A DNA stretch of 64,000 bases from Rhodococcus tibetensis (GTDB taxonomy: Bacteria; Actinomycetota; Actinomycetes; Mycobacteriales; Mycobacteriaceae), in assembly GCF_024438035.1 (NCBI RefSeq), contig NZ_JANFQF010000005.1, positions 124,001 to 188,000 on the forward strand, read 5' to 3'. The notes under the pieces were generated by a model. That model did not search any database. It was not told where the DNA came from and worked only from the letters and a program-made list of their open reading frames with translations. This document shows positions 7,520-35,315 of the stretch, piece after piece (within the stretch, counting starts at the first letter, position 1; each line of letters starts with the position of its first letter). Both the position numbers and the translations under genes were made by a program.

Positions 7520-8155
7520 CTAGAGCCCAGCGGAAAGGCTACGGCCGAGCGGAAGGTTACGACCCAGGACCGCGAACGGACGATTGTCACCTGCGAACCG
7601 GAAGTGCCGCAGCACATCGGTGAATCCGAGACGACGATAGAGCCGCCACGCGCGATTGTCCTCGTCGGCGACCTCGGGGGTGGACAACAGCACACCGCGC
7701 TCGGGTCTGCGGTCGAGCAGTCGGAGAAGGAGCGTCTCGCCGAGACGGTGTCCCTGGGCGTCGGGGTGCACGTGGAGTTCGGTCAGTTCGAAATAGTCGT
7801 CGAGGATCGTGTCGATCCGGTCAAGGGTCCAGCCGGTGTGCCGTAAACCGGTGCGGACCTGCTGGTGCCACCACTGTTCGGGGGCTCCCCGGTAGCCGTA
7901 GGCGACAGCGACGAGGCGGTCGACCGCATCGGATTCGGTGGACGGATCGGCGGGGACCACTGCGCCGACACCACACCACCCTGATCGCTGCACGTGCTCG
8001 GTCCACATCGGCGCCCGGTGATATTCCGTCCCCCGGGGATAGCCCATGGCGGCGACATAGATCGCGAGGGCCTCCTGGAGGCGGTCGCGAAACTCGGCAG
8101 CCGAGAGTTCGACCACGAGCGGGATCTGGTCAGCGTTCGTGTCGACCGGTCTCAC
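7520..8155 (-). CDS. GNAT-family N-acetyltransferase
   Basis: Cytoplasmic acetyltransferase of 211 residues. The acetyl-CoA pyrophosphate loop is visible as QGHRLGETLL (about 134-143), following the beta strand TELHVHP. The C-terminal NRAWRLYRRLGF segment is typical of GNAT domains. The GTG at 8155 is chosen because the frame further upstream is low-quality coding and AGAGAAGG directly precedes this codon. Position next to lppM and the DUF3040/mraZ region matches M. tuberculosis Rv2170, a GNAT protein. The acceptor substrate cannot be read from sequence. It is divergent from the HEPN gene, so the LexA-type box at 8201-8216 lies in its upstream region too. Confidence 0.82.
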   Translation of the reverse strand: MRPVDTNADQIPLVVELSAAEFRDRLQEALAIYVAAMGYPRGTEYHRAPMWTEHVQRSGWCGVGAVVPADPSTESDAVDRLVAVAYGYRGAPEQWWHQQVRTGLRHTGWTLDRIDTILDDYFELTELHVHPDAQGHRLGETLLLRLLDRRPERGVLLSTPEVADEDNRAWRLYRRLGFTDVLRHFRFAGDNRPFAVLGRNLPLGRSLSAGL

Positions 8156-8162
8156 CCTTCTC

Positions 8163-8193
8163 TTGACGACGTGTCGGTGGGTCCAGCTATATT
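8163..8193 (+). promoter_or_regulatory. Sigma-70-type promoter of the HEPN gene
   Basis: TTGACG (8163-8168) and TATATT (8188-8193) are separated by 19 bp. The predicted start of transcription is at about 8200, immediately before or within the LexA-type box, an arrangement in which a bound repressor would block initiation. Confidence 0.55.
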
Positions 8194-8200
8194 GAATAGG

Positions 8201-8216
8201 TCGAACGGATGTTCGA
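8201..8216 (+). promoter_or_regulatory. LexA-type SOS box
   Basis: TCGAACGGATGTTCGA is a perfect match to the actinobacterial/Gram-positive LexA operator form TCGAAC-N4-GTTCGA. It lies directly downstream of the -10 hexamer TATATT, the position expected for repression of the downstream HEPN gene. It is also 46 bp from the start of the divergent GNAT gene. Confidence 0.75.
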
Positions 8217-8325
8217 TAGCGGGGATCCGGTGATGCTCGAGGGAAGCGAGCATCGCCGGCGCCCCGGCTCACGACAGGACTACGCCCGGCGGGGTGGACA
8301 CACCGGGGTTGTGGAGGTGTTCGAA

Positions 8326-8793
8326 GTGAGGAACAACTCGGTTTCAGGACCGACTTCTGAGCGCTCGCGGCGACCGGGGGATGTGCGTGCTCCTGCATCG
8401 CGGCGCGCCGCGTCGTTGCTCGCTCGAGCCGACGCGCTCCTCTCCCAATCGGTCGGTGCCGGCTCGCCTGCGGATCGTTTCCACAGCGCGTACCTGGCCG
8501 CACTCCGCGGTGCCGGTGCGGTGCTGGCGGCCGCGGAGGGTGCCTCGCCGGGAGGCCGACGGACACGAACGCGTAACGCTTGGGTTCTCATGGCCGACGC
8601 GGCGGTCGATTTCGGCGAATGGGCCGACTATTTCGCCGGGCACTCCGCCACTCGCGCGGCGATAGAGGCCGGTATGTCGCGAACACTCACCGATCTCGAG
8701 GCGGACGAGTTCTTTGTCGAGGTGGGGCGGTTTCTCCAAGCGGTGGAAGACCACATCGGGCGCGGTGTCGACATCGATTTGAGGGCGTCGTAG
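8326..8793 (+). CDS. SAV_6107-family HEPN domain protein, probably LexA-regulated
   Basis: Small protein of 155 residues, mostly alpha-helical after a basic N-terminus of about 25 residues. The order of helices (RRAASLLARADALL, RFHSAYLAALRGAGAVL, WVLMADAAVDFGEWADYF, LEADEFFVEVGRFL) matches the SAV_6107 HEPN family of actinobacteria. The canonical HEPN ribonuclease motif (R-x4-6-H) is not evident, so nuclease activity is doubtful. GTG at 8326 is preferred because GGAGG (8313-8317) lies 8 bp before it; the frame reaches back to an ATG at 8209, but that ATG lies inside the LexA box. Expression is expected after DNA damage. The function is unknown. Confidence 0.72.
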   Translation: MRNNSVSGPTSERSRRPGDVRAPASRRAASLLARADALLSQSVGAGSPADRFHSAYLAALRGAGAVLAAAEGASPGGRRTRTRNAWVLMADAAVDFGEWADYFAGHSATRAAIEAGMSRTLTDLEADEFFVEVGRFLQAVEDHIGRGVDIDLRAS

Positions 8794-9027: not shown

Positions 9028-9456
9028 GTGCCACTCTCCGAGCACGAGCAGCGCATGCTCGACCAGATCGAGAGCGCTCTCTATGCCGAAGATCCCAAGT
9101 TCGCCTCCACTGTGCGAGGCGGTCGCATGCGTGCGGCATCGAGTCGTCGTCGATTGCAAGCTGTAGCCCTGTTCGTCCTGGGACTGGTACTGCTCATCGC
9201 CGGCGTCGCCCTGCCGATCAAGCCGGGTGGTTTTCCGATCATCAGCTTGATCGGCTTCATCGTTATGTTCGGTGCGGGAGTCCTCCTCCTGTGGGGTGGG
9301 GGAAAGAAGCAGTCCCGACAGTCGTCGCGTGGCGGCTCGACCACGCCCGACGAGACCAAGAGGACCGACCGGGGTAAGCCTCGGAGCGGACGCAAGAGTG
9401 GCGGGTTCTCGTCGCGAATGGAAGATCGCTTCAAGAAGAGGTTCGAGCAGGAGTAA
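9028..9456 (+). CDS. DUF3040 membrane protein
   Basis: Protein of 142 residues starting with the family-typical PLSEHEQRMLDQIE segment. Two adjacent membrane helices follow (about residues 43-63 and 67-92), then a highly basic Ser/Gly/Lys/Arg cytoplasmic tail. The GTG is preceded by GGGGGAGG at ideal spacing. M. tuberculosis has a DUF3040 gene (Rv2169c) in the same place just upstream of mraZ. The function is unknown; location beside the division cluster hints at an envelope role. A very strong terminator follows at once, so it is transcriptionally separate from mraZ. Confidence 0.85.
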   Translation: MPLSEHEQRMLDQIESALYAEDPKFASTVRGGRMRAASSRRRLQAVALFVLGLVLLIAGVALPIKPGGFPIISLIGFIVMFGAGVLLLWGGGKKQSRQSSRGGSTTPDETKRTDRGKPRSGRKSGGFSSRMEDRFKKRFEQE

Positions 9457-9630: not shown

Positions 9631-9845
9631 TCATGGGTGGGGTGATCGAGTCGCGACCGCAGTCGTGTCCATTCGCGGCGGCTCACCTGGTCTTTTGATG
9701 CGCGCCGGGGGGCTCTGGGTTGCTTGGCCGCGTGCCTGTGCCGTGTTTGCGATCACTCGGGGAATTTTCCCCCACTTTCCTGAATTCGCGTTGACCAGCA
9801 AGTATCGAGCAAACGGCAGGGAAACACCGTCCTTTCCGCCTTGTC

Positions 9846-9870
9846 AGTGGGGGAAAGTGGGGTACTGTGG
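9846..9870 (+). promoter_or_regulatory. Proximal MraZ-type boxes
   Basis: AGTGG at 9846, AGTGG at 9856 and TGTGG at 9866 are spaced exactly 10 bp, in line with the TGGGN-N5 direct repeats recognised by MraZ, the autorepressor of the dcw cluster in other bacteria. They lie about 70-95 bp before the mraZ start. Confidence 0.65.
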
Positions 9871-9941: not shown

Positions 9942-10373
9942 GTGTTTCTCGGTACCTACACGCCGAAGCTCGACGACAAGGGGCGGCTGACGTTGCCCGC
10001 AAAGTTCCGGGATGCACTGGCGGGAGGGTTGATGGTCACCAAGGGTCAGGATCACAGCCTTGCGGTGTATCCCCGGGAAGAGTTCACTGCGCTTGCGCGC
10101 AAGGCCGCGGCCGCCTCGAGAAGCGATCCGGAAGCGCGAGCATTCGTCCGTGGTCTCGCTGCCGGCACCGATGAGCAGCACGCAGATGCCCAGGGGCGCA
10201 TCACCCTCTCGGCAGATCACCGTCGTTACGCGGGTCTTTCCAAGGATTGCGTAGTGATCGGTTCGGTCGATTTCCTCGAGATCTGGGATGCGCAAGCATG
10301 GCAGACCTACATCGAGGAAAACGAGGAGAACTACTCGCAGGCAACGGGAGTCGCGCTCGGCGAGATCGTCTGA
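9942..10373 (+). CDS. mraZ: Transcriptional regulator MraZ
   Basis: DNA-binding protein of 143 residues, the first gene of the division/cell-wall cluster. It has two SpoVT-AbrB-like halves, each with the family motif: [10 protein letters not shown] at about 11-20 and DAQGRITL in the second half. MraZ forms oligomeric rings that bind tandem GTGG-type repeats and repress its own operon. GTG at 9942 follows GGGAGGTG. Repeats of the expected type lie just upstream, so autoregulation is likely. A 198-bp gap with no obvious terminator separates it from rsmH. Confidence 0.97.
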
Positions 10374-30802: not shown

Positions 30803-33800
30803 GTGAGCACCACAAGTAACGTCACCAACAGCAACGAGTCCTACCCGAAGGTCGATTACGGCGTTCAGCAGGATACGGGCGTCAAGTTCCCTCAGGTGGA
30901 GCAGCGTGTGCTGGCAGGTTGGGACGAGGACGACACCTTCCGGGCGTCCGTGACGCAGCGTGACGGCGACGAAGAGTTCGTCTTCTATGACGGCCCGCCG
31001 TTCGCCAACGGTCTTCCGCACTACGGTCACCTACTGACCGGGTATGTCAAAGACCTGATCCCGCGTTTCCAGACGATGCGCGGCAAGAAGGTCGAGCGCC
31101 GGTTCGGGTGGGACTGCCACGGCCTTCCGGCCGAACTCGAGGCGGAAAAGCAGCTCGGCATCAAGGACAAATCCGAGATCGACGTCATGGGTCTCGAGAA
31201 GTTCAACGAGTACTGCAAGTCCTCGGTTCTGCGGTACACCGACGAGTGGCGCGACTACGTCACCCGCCAGGCAAGGTGGGTCGACTTCGACAACGATTAC
31301 AAGACCCTGGACCTCGACTTCATGGAGTCGGTCATGTGGGCGTTCAAGGAGCTGTTCGACAAGGGGCTGATCTACCAGGGCTTCCGGGTGCTGCCGTACA
31401 GCTGGTACGAGCAGACGCCGCTGTCGAATCAGGAGACCCGACTCGACGACGCGTACAAGATGCGTCAGGACCCGGCCGTCACCGTCGACATGCCGCTGCG
31501 CGGTGAGGGCCCGCTGGACGGCGCGAACGCGATCATCTGGACCACGACGCCCTGGACGCTGCCGTCCAACCTCGCGGTCGCGGTGCATCCCGACATCGAC
31601 TACGTACAGGTATCGGGGCTCGACGGGAAGCGCTATGTGCTCGCCCGGGATCGTCTGAGCCACTATGCCCGTGAACTCGGTGACTCGCCGGAGGTGCTGT
31701 CCGAACACAAGGGGGCCGATCTCATCGGTCTGCACTACGATCCGCCGTTCGATTTCTTCGCCGGCCACGAGAACGCGCATCGCGTCATCTCCGCGGAGTA
31801 CGTCACCACGGAATCCGGTACCGGGATCGTGCACATGGCCCCGGCTTTCGGTGAGGAGGACTACGACTACTGCCTCCGCAACGGCATCGAATTGGTCCAG
31901 CCGCTCGACGCGGGTGGCAAGTTCACGTCGATGGTCCCGCCTTACGAGGGACTTCAGGTGTTCGACGCCAACCCGGCGATCATCAAGGACCTCAAGGCTG
32001 CTGGAAAGTTGCTGCGGCACGAGACGATTGAGCACTCGTATCCGCACAGCTGGCGCAGCGGGCAGCCGCTCATCTACATGGCGGTCCCGTCGTGGTTCGT
32101 CGCGGTCACCAAATTCCGCGATCGAATGGTCGAGCTGAACCAGGAGATCACCTGGGTACCCGAGCACATCCGTGACGGACAGTTCGGCAAGTGGCTCGAG
32201 GGTGCCCGCGACTGGAACATCAGCCGTAACCGGTACTGGGGCAGCCCCATCCCGGTGTGGGTGTCCGACGACCCGGCGTACCCGCGGACCGATGTGTACG
32301 GCTCGCTCGACGAACTCGAGCGCGACTTCGGCGTGCGGCCGAGCGATCTGCACCGGCCGATGATCGACGAGCTCGTCCGTCCCAACCCGGACGATCCGAC
32401 GGGAAAGTCGATGATGCGTCGAGTTCCCGAGGTACTCGACTGCTGGTTCGAATCCGGGTCGATGCCCTACGCGCAGGTGCACTACCCCTTCGAGAATCGC
32501 GATTGGTTCGATAGCCACTTCCCGGGTGACTTCATCGTCGAATACAACGGTCAGACTCGCGGATGGTTCTATACCCTCCACGTGCTCGCGACCGCGCTGT
32601 TCGATCGTCCCGCGTTCAAGACCGTTGCGGCGCACGGCATCGTGCTCGGCGACGATGGACTGAAGATGAGCAAGTCGAAGGGCAACTACCCGGATGTCAA
32701 GGAGGTGTTCGAGCGCGACGGCTCGGACGCCATGCGGTGGTTCCTCATGTCTTCGCCGATCCTGCGGGGCGGAAACCTCGTGGTCACCGAACAAGGCATC
32801 CGCGAGGGTGTGCGGCAGGCGCTGCTGCCGTTGTGGAACGCGTGGAGCTTTCTGCAGCTGTATGCGCCGAAGCCGGGCCAGTGGCGGACCGATTCGACCA
32901 ACGTCCTCGACCGGTACATCCTCGCGAAATTGGCCGGCACCAGGGACGTGATCACCGATGCGCTCGAGACGAACGACATCGCCGGCGCGTGTGACGAACT
33001 GCGCACGTTCTGTGATGCATTGACCAATTGGTATGTACGCCGTTCGCGTTCGCGGTTCTGGAGTGAGGACGCCGAGGCGGTCGACACCCTGCACGCGGTG
33101 CTCGAGGTGGTCACCCGTCTCTCCGCTCCCTTGCTCCCACTGATCACCGAGGTGATCTGGCGGGGGCTGACCGGCGGCCGGTCGGTGCATCTCGCGGACT
33201 GGCCTGCCCAGGGTGAACTGCCGGCGGATCCGGAACTGGTGTCGGCGATGGACGAGGTCCGGTCGGTGTGCTCGACGGTGCTCGGTTTGCGGAAGGCGCA
33301 GAACCTGCGGGTGCGGTTGCCGCTGCCCGAGGTGACGGTGGCCGCCGACGACGCGGAGCGCCTGCGTCCGTTCCTGGGACTGATCGCCGACGAGGTCAAC
33401 GTGAAGAAGGTCGACCTGACGACGGATGTGGACGTGCACGGCCGTTTCGAGCTCGTCGTCAACGCGCGCGCCGCGGGGCCGCGTTTGGGCAAGGACGTGC
33501 AGACCGTGATCAAGGCCGTGAAGTCGGGTGAGTGGTCGGAGAATGCGGACGGGGTCGTCACCGCGGCGGGGATCGAATTGCTGCCCGAGGAGTACACGCA
33601 GCGGCTCGTGGCGGCCGAACCCGAGTCGACCGCCGCACTGCCGGGTGGTGCCGGTCTGGTGGTTCTCGACTCGGCCGTTACCGAGGAACTGGAAGCCGAG
33701 GGCTGGGCGAAGGACCGCATCCGCGAGTTGCAGGACGCGCGCCGGGCAGCAGGCCTCGACGTATCGGACCGCATCACCGTGGTGCTCGAGGTTCCGGCCG

Positions 33801-33968: not shown

Positions 33969-35315
33969 GTGAGCCGTCGATGGGTGCTGCACCTCGACAT
34001 GGACGCGTTTTTCGCCTCGGTCGAGCAGCTCACCCGGCCGACGCTTCGTGGCCGCCCGGTGCTCGTCGGTGGGCTCGGCGGCCGTGGGGTGGTCGCCGGG
34101 GCCAGTTACGAGGCGCGGGTGTTCGGAGCCCGCTCCGCGATGCCGATGCACCAGGCCCGGCGGCTCGTCGGGCCCGGTGCCGTCGTGTTGCCGCCGCGCG
34201 GTCGGCTGTACGGCATGTTGAGCAAGTCCGTGTTCGATGCGGTGCGTGGTCCCATGCCCGTGCTCGAGCAGCTGTCGATGGACGAGGCCTTCGGTGAACC
34301 GGCAGAGTTGGCCGGGGCGGATGCGGCCATGGTGCGCAGGTACTGCGAGGACCTGCGGGCCCTGGTGTTCGAAGAAACCGGACTGGTCGCATCGATCGGT
34401 GCGGGATCCGGCAAGCAGGTGGCCAAGATCGCGTCCGGTCTGGCCAAACCGAACGGAATCACCGTCGTCGCGCCGGAAGAACAGCACGCGCTGCTCGACG
34501 GGCTGCCGGTGCGGAAGTTGTGGGGCATCGGTCCCGTCGCCGAGGACAAGCTCAAACGCCTCGGCATCGAGACGATCGGAAGTTTCGCGCGCACTCCCGA
34601 AGCCGAGGTCGCGTCCATTCTCGGCACCACGATCGGCCCGGGCCTGCACCGGCTGGCGCGGGGCATCGACAATCGGCCCGTCGCCGAGCGGGCCGAGTCG
34701 AAACAGGTCAGTGCCGAGACCACCTACGCCACCGACATTGTCACGCTCGCGGAACTGCGGGGAGCGGTCGAGTCGAGTGCTGGTTCCGCATTCGCACGCC
34801 TGCAGAAGGACGGCCGGGCGGCGCGAACAGTGGTGCTGAAGCTGAAGAAGGCGGATATGAGCATCGTCACCCGGTCGGTCACCTTGCCCTACGCCACGCT
34901 GGACCGTCCCACCCTTGTCGCCGCGGCTCAGCGACAGGTGATCGACCCTCTCGAACTCGGTCCCGTGCGCCTCGTCGGGGTCGGCTTCGCCGGTCTGTCG
35001 ACGGTGCGGCAAGGTTCGCTGTTTCCCGAACTCGATCTGGACGTGCCCGGCTATCGGGACTCGGCGGCGGCACAGGCCGAAGGCGGCGCGGTGTCGCCCG
35101 TGCAGCCGATCCCGGCACGCGAGGCCGAGCGACGATGGCATCCGGGTCTCGATGTGATGCATCCCGACTTCGGGCACGGTTGGGTCCAGGGCGCGGGGCA
35201 GGGTGTCGTGACCGTCCGATTCGAAACGCGCACAACTGGTCCCGGTGTGGCGCGCACCTTCAAGGAGAACGACGAGCAACTCGCGCAAGCGGGAGTGGAG
35301 GGCTCCCTCGCCTGA
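33969..35315 (+). CDS. dinB: Y-family DNA polymerase IV (DinB/DinX type)
   Basis: Translesion polymerase of 448 residues. The catalytic acidic residues appear as [12 protein letters not shown] (Asp10, Asp12) and SMDEAF (Asp105, Glu106). Helix-hairpin-helix [17 protein letters not shown] follows. A QGSLF sequence (348-352) resembles the beta-clamp binding motif, and about 90 further residues form an extra C-terminal region. Location straight after ileS matches mycobacterial DinX (Rv1537). GTG at 33969 is chosen for the conserved start [12 protein letters not shown]; upstream in-frame sequence lies in ileS. Confidence 0.94.

Follow-up and report, generated by a model that had tools for sequence, protein, structure and literature searches.

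In a stretch of 64,000 nucleotides from Rhodococcus tibetensis (contig NZ_JANFQF010000005.1, positions 124,001 to 188,000; the window in the following), a gene encoding a SAV_6107-type HEPN protein is preceded by a perfect LexA operator. This operator is conserved upstream of the gene in most of the actinobacterial genomes compared, and in many bacterial families the gene directly precedes genes of translesion synthesis. From this context we judge it somewhat better than an even chance that the HEPN gene is both a widespread member of the actinobacterial DNA damage response and a so far unrecognised accessory gene of SOS translesion synthesis.

The SOS box at the HEPN promoter

The operator, TCGAACGGATGTTCGA, corresponds perfectly to TCGAAC-N4-GTTCGA and was the only perfect copy detected by a pattern scan of the window. 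An earlier note, made from the letters of this DNA alone, had described it as lying directly behind a TTGACG/TATATT promoter, 109 bp ahead of the HEPN gene and also upstream of a divergent GNAT gene, and had stated that the dinB gene of the window carries no such box. All of this was borne out: the two promoter elements occupy positions 8163-8168 and 8188-8193, 19 bp apart, the gap between the box (8201-8216) and the GTG start codon at 8326 is 109 bp, 72 bp separate the box from position 8128, where the scanned GNAT frame starts, and the site with at most two mismatches that lies nearest to dinB is found at 32436-32451. With up to two mismatches allowed, the window contains 12 LexA-type sites (mean of shuffled sequences 4.7; none of 100 shuffles reached 12). 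Within the genome of 5.81 Mb, six perfect sites were counted, and one with the pattern read backwards as a control.

Four of the other perfect sites, each at position 1501 of its locus, were inspected and the adjoining frames named by eye. One precedes a small conserved frame (L001) and another is close to a hypothetical frame (L002); the third is flanked by WhiB-like and FbiA/CofD-like frames (L005) and the fourth by HNH-endonuclease-like and TetR-like frames (L006).

Conservation of the operator within actinobacteria

For the determination of conservation, the 1200 bp upstream of the HEPN domain were scanned in 158 actinobacterial genomes carrying the family, and the best site of each was recorded; the limit of 1200 bp was set after a site at -1152 (L168) had been seen. 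The genomes are a non-random sample, composed of best-match loci and of picks made to cover many families; of 198 genomes with a match in one of the underlying searches, a part was used. The Corynebacterium-like genus is represented by the 30 best-scoring of 80 genomes plus one, and the counts leave out weak PF18726 relatives outside the class (L034-L042). The labels Mycobacterium-like (g2), Streptomyces-like (f4) and Corynebacterium-like (g195) were inferred from kinship and named hits.

The box was perfect in 85 genomes; 25 genomes carried a site with one mismatch, another 25 one with two, and the remaining 23 one with at least three, so that 110 of the 158 had no more than a single mismatch. 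In the genus of the window genome it was perfect in 26 of 26 genomes, the window genome counted; the named relatives at the level of the locus DNA (six loci, 79-86% identity) are all Rhodococcus. All 85 perfect sites fell into the 189.6 kb upstream of HEPN and none into the remaining 620.5 kb. With a limit of 1000 bp and 99 loci, 72 perfect sites were located in 99 kb upstream and one in the other 518.5 kb. Ten non-redundant sequences of the genus, aligned on the box, had both arms invariant, while the flanks averaged 0.77 and 0.63 and the spacer 0.68. The upstream alignment that the earlier note had proposed as a check, close relatives included, therefore speaks for the operator. A chance palindrome was rejected on the grounds of this conservation, and the HEPN gene, with an SOS box at its promoter that is kept in relatives, has the features of a LexA regulon member; as far as sequence can tell, there is good support for its control by LexA.

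Damage induction as such is not new, since it is in print for a gene of C. glutamicum that is very probably the ortholog. This gene, cg2381, is one of 48 listed for the LexA regulon and, like recA, is induced by ciprofloxacin (M 3.86), while mraZ (cg2378) falls (M -1.13; PMC5055667); the opposite responses mean that the two genes do not simply share a transcript. Of 14 control genomes, C. glutamicum alone has a PF18726 match, corynebacterial loci have the order HEPN-DUF3040-mraZ, and the position of mraZ fits, so that orthology is deduced from gene order and the control set rather than from a sequence comparison.

In the window, as in its family, the box is flanked by the GNAT and HEPN genes, and it might serve the former, with HEPN nearby by accident. 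Outside the family, however, many loci have no GNAT gene that could be found, or one at a distance of over 1 kb, and the box stands ahead of HEPN or DUF6504 all the same; moreover, it is cg2381 itself that is induced in C. glutamicum (PMC5055667). We regard this explanation as highly improbable.

Further sites were observed in individual groups. In one family (f90; L150, L152, L159, L186, L188) two one-mismatch boxes lie 40 bp apart upstream of HEPN. Streptomyces-like loci (L016, L020, L173, L192 and others) share a recurrent site of the type CCGAAC-N4-GATCGA, with two mismatches, about -270 to -295 from the domain, where an SOS box might have been. A one-mismatch sequence near the 3' end of DUF3040, about +810 to +1000 from the HEPN domain (L097, L098, L101, L103, L104, L116), probably reflects coding constraint.

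Gene neighborhood and a proposed link to translesion synthesis

Profile annotation of 99 loci, 3.5 kb upstream and about 2.5 kb downstream, revealed a translesion-synthesis gene 3' of HEPN on the same strand in 46 loci, distributed over 31 of 38 families, and thus a mutasome context across the family. The most frequent of these genes was dnaE2, which follows HEPN in 28 loci, 26 of them with DUF6504 before HEPN; the distance from the HEPN stop codon to the start of the DnaE2 profile match is at most 25 bp in 21 of the 28. Seven loci carry imuA' after HEPN (six with imuB) and 11 carry dinB, nine of them behind a methyltransferase gene. Examples were confirmed for DnaE2 (L137, L162), ImuA' (L123, L130, L156), ImuB (L123) and Pol IV (L129).

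The earlier note had left the choice between a division brake and a repair factor. Because a translesion-synthesis gene follows HEPN in so many families, a factor of repair or damage tolerance is favored, and the idea of a brake rests on the neighborhood of the window's family. There, in the window and in most loci, the order HEPN-DUF3040-mraZ would allow a damage-made HEPN protein to slow the adjoining division machinery, like DivS in C. glutamicum, and the rise of cg2381 with the fall of mraZ under ciprofloxacin (PMC5055667) would agree with it. The fall of mraZ has other possible causes, though, and most other families have translesion genes instead of the division cluster. As this neighborhood is not kept across families, the brake was set aside as improbable.

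Alternatively, HEPN could be a general damage-response factor, for instance a binder of single-strand DNA or RNA or a ligation helper, which shares operons with polymerases only as another SOS gene. Many loci have neither a polymerase nor DUF6504 adjoining HEPN, and in one (L126) SOS box, HEPN and ligA, encoding NAD-dependent DNA ligase, stand in a row. Such a role is nevertheless rather unlikely in view of the recurrence of DnaE2, ImuA'-ImuB and DinB over the families and of the short gaps to DnaE2.

The features of the window are listed in Table 1. Its family shows the order box-HEPN-DUF3040-mraZ with a divergent GNAT gene; the one exception (L110) has a methyltransferase gene and dinB. Seven Streptomyces-like loci have the order HEPN-methyltransferase-DUF3040 and no good box. 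HEPN is not placed beside translesion genes in the genome under study: the dinB of the window is about 25 kb away, and dnaE2 and imuB are located on contig C10, the former behind a perfect box and the latter behind one with a single mismatch. The window, where the HEPN gene stands by itself next to the division cluster, gives the impression of a reduced arrangement, in which HEPN would have kept its operator while dnaE2 and imuB stand elsewhere behind boxes of their own.

Table 1. Positions of the HEPN gene, its control elements and neighboring genes in the window.
Feature	Positions	Strand	Remarks
GNAT acetyltransferase frame	7520..8128	-	divergent; candidate start
PafBC-type (RecA-NDp) promoter motif, TGTCGGTG-N8-TATATT	8172..8193	+	ends 7 bp before the box; TTGACG (8163-8168) ahead
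LexA/SOS box, TCGAACGGATGTTCGA	8201..8216	.	just after the -10 element; based on scans and on perfect copies in 26/26 genomes of the genus
Leader hairpin	8227..8259	+	13-bp stem, loop AGGGAAG; between SOS box and HEPN
GGAGG, likely ribosome-binding site	8313..8317	+	read from the sequence
SAV_6107-type HEPN gene	8326..8793	+	155 amino acids; domain 8458-8748
DUF3040 gene	9028..9456	+	downstream of HEPN
mraZ	9942..10373	+	opens the division cluster; name assigned by reading and from its position in relatives
dinB (Pol IV)	33984..35000	+	tblastn match; no SOS box nearby

DUF6504, so often found ahead of HEPN, possibly corresponds to the ImuB-C module that stands alone in actinobacterial DnaE2B systems (PMC12926913, PMC6511836). 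An alignment of profiles with hhalign gave a weak match to the C-terminus of ImuB (P 0.00046, probability 33%, 44 columns; reversed control P 0.057), and profile matches to DUF6504 occur in the Caulobacter control genome; a Pfam search of the ImuB of the genome under study did not find the domain, and DUF6504 is not mentioned in the literature searched. Three loci (L251, L257, L258) have DUF6504 directly before a dnaE2-like frame, named by eye, and no HEPN gene; the stretch examined there contains no box with fewer than two mismatches.

A PafBC-type promoter in front of the box

The stretch 8172-8193 fits the core TGTCRGTG-N8-TANNNT exactly and thereby qualifies as a putative promoter of the PafBC type; the earlier note mentions neither this motif nor the leader hairpin. 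The RecA-independent damage promoter of mycobacteria is described as tTGTCRgtg-8nt-TannnT (PMC5656591), and PafBC is reported to activate through it (PMC6789036). Eighteen copies of the core occur in the genome, compared with one of the reversed pattern. Within the window, eight sites had up to two mismatches (mean of shuffles 2.49; two of 100 reached eight), which is not striking alone. Among the six perfect LexA sites and the one-mismatch imuB site, only the HEPN site has the core directly before the box. When loci whose box has no more than one mismatch were searched for the motif, with up to two mismatches of 13 accepted, it was present at the box in 43 of 87 loci, comprising 21 of 21 in the genus and 22 of 66 outside it; control stretches gave 0 and 4 of 87. 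Two adjacent WYL genes of the genome fit a putative pafB-pafC pair. Activation of the HEPN promoter by PafBC is probable. A further sequence, TTGTCAGTGGGGGAAAGTGGGGT (9841-9863), is one mismatch from the PafBC pattern and about 80 bp ahead of mraZ; with its spaced TGGG repeats it resembles an MraZ operator more closely.

Several observations have to be weighed against a general role of the gene under LexA and PafBC in translesion synthesis. A good PafBC-type motif is missing at the box of 44 of the 87 loci, and in 53 of the 99 annotated loci, including almost every locus of the window's own family, the 2.5 kb downstream contain no translesion gene. None of the 22 Streptomyces-like genomes has a box with at most one mismatch (11 have two), the gene being kept without a good box, and the table of selected LexA genes of S. 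venezuelae does not list the HEPN gene. Of 31 Corynebacterium-like genomes one has a perfect box, ten have one mismatch and 12 have two, and in eight there are three or more. Finally, the HEPN family was not found in the Mycobacterium-like genus (19 of 19 listed genomes), although mycobacteria possess the mutasome, for which the gene is therefore not needed in that genus; upstream of DUF3040 in 26 loci of this genus, no LexA site with fewer than two mismatches was detected. The absence from this genus and the Streptomyces-like genomes without a good box show that the HEPN gene is neither universal nor always SOS-controlled.

The HEPN protein

The window protein matches the profile PF18726 (HEPN_SAV_6107) with 104 bits at a cut-off of 27.2, and the HEPN fold was recovered as well, MNT-HEPN toxins being among the matches. 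An in-frame ATG at 8209, inside the box, would result in a protein of 194 amino acids. Because the frame between box and gene is closed in 10 of 21 loci of the genus, GTG 8326 is preferred as the start. One named relative from Rhodococcus (P0001) has 193 amino acids, the length expected from a start inside the operator (window 8209-8325); its annotated start is probably too early.

The statement of the earlier note that an obvious HEPN RNase motif is lacking holds for the window protein, in which R-x4-6-H, read from the sequence, does not occur anywhere, so that it does not qualify as a catalytic HEPN RNase. In the family, however, 45 of 54 aligned proteins have a histidine at residue 56, which falls into the second predicted helix, five positions behind an almost invariant R51. 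This R51-x4-H56 of most relatives, the fold with its toxin matches and two weak PADLOC hits to PDC-M05B (E 0.0017 and 0.014) would be compatible with an SOS-induced RNase or toxin that halts growth like catalytic HEPN proteins. The motif of the relatives lies in the second helix, however, whereas R102 and H107 of the toxin come later, judged by entry titles and not mapped residue by residue. In addition, no toxin-antitoxin partner was present beside HEPN in the 99 annotated loci, and the table of a HEPN survey marks the HEPN-M SAV_6107 group 'No' for the catalytic motif (PMC3710099). An RNase or toxin is hence hardly to be expected, and the protein is predicted to be a non-catalytic helical bundle, lacking the RNase motif of the toxins.

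No NCBIfam model matched the protein at E 0.001, solved-structure sequences yielded chance-level rows only, and phage records contained no relative at E 1e-5. A C-terminal tail with an HQPxL-like motif recurs in several relatives (L123, L130, L131, L137, L156, L160, L162 and others) and not in the window protein.

A conserved hairpin in the leader

The HEPN leader folds better than all of 200 shuffled sequences (z -4.27). Upstream of HEPN, all 21 loci of the genus carry a hairpin whose loop is AGGGAAG or AAGGGAAG and whose stem has at least 6 unbroken base pairs; of 13 loci from other genera of the family, three have it (L094, L110, L178). Twelve distinct sequences, ten from the genus plus L094 and L106, showed covariation: 98.1% of cells pair, 9 of 13 pairs are changed on both sides and the AGGGAAG loop core is invariant, with shuffled and slid controls much lower. 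Nearly all matches to the pattern in the 1.33 Mb searched are HEPN leaders, one other being a 6-bp case in L297. Rfam gave no family match for 8100-8500, and viral contigs no exact match to one hairpin pattern. The AGGGAAG hairpin was recorded in L094, L096-L105, L107-L111 and L178-L185.

Proposed role and significance

An accessory factor of translesion synthesis would be the most economical reading of these data. LexA at the transcription start would keep HEPN expression low; DNA damage would remove it, and PafBC would probably drive the promoter. The same double control is reported for the mycobacterial imuA'-imuB/dnaE2 cassette (PMC10421592). HEPN would then be made together with error-prone polymerases, in many families probably from one transcript, and might act by binding, as an adaptor that loads, stabilizes or restrains the error-prone polymerase complex. 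A bolder proposal, which we are more inclined to doubt than to believe, is that HEPN is a missing subunit of actinobacterial SOS mutagenesis under LexA and PafBC; its target would be the DnaE2/ImuB-C or DinB complex or else the nucleic acid of stalled forks, and it would set the frequency at which error-prone polymerases are employed. In Rhodococcus its synthesis might be retuned via the AGGGAAG hairpin, perhaps by the protein itself.

DnaE2-type mutasomes cause damage-induced mutations in actinobacteria, including resistance mutations. Outside mycobacteria their parts list is based mostly on gene neighborhoods, to which a conserved HEPN gene is now added. An orphan LexA target thereby obtains a testable role, with a promoter at which both actinobacterial damage systems apparently stand side by side. 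If functional, the leader hairpin would provide an extra layer of control, which we found described nowhere for the HEPN gene.

Comparison with known systems

As far as the searched papers show, the breadth of the family's SOS association, the translesion neighbors, the PafBC-type promoter and the hairpin are new. With the HEPN-M SAV_6107 group (PMC3710099) the protein shares family and fold; the survey table differs in that it gives no gene-neighborhood link. The mycobacterial recA gene is likewise subject to two damage systems, its promoters being described as separate (P1, P2), whereas at HEPN the PafBC-type motif belongs to the promoter that carries the LexA box, with 7 bp between the two. 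No paper with both HEPN and DnaE2 was found in the literature searched, and HEPN does not occur in the main texts on the ImuA'-ImuB-DnaE2 mutasome and the DnaE2B-[ImuB-C] system (PMC12926913, PMC6511836). Both systems resemble the loci described here in combining DnaE2, ImuA'-ImuB and a small module of the ImuB-C kind in SOS operons; the loci described here differ from them by a HEPN gene placed between DUF6504 and DnaE2 or before ImuA'-ImuB.
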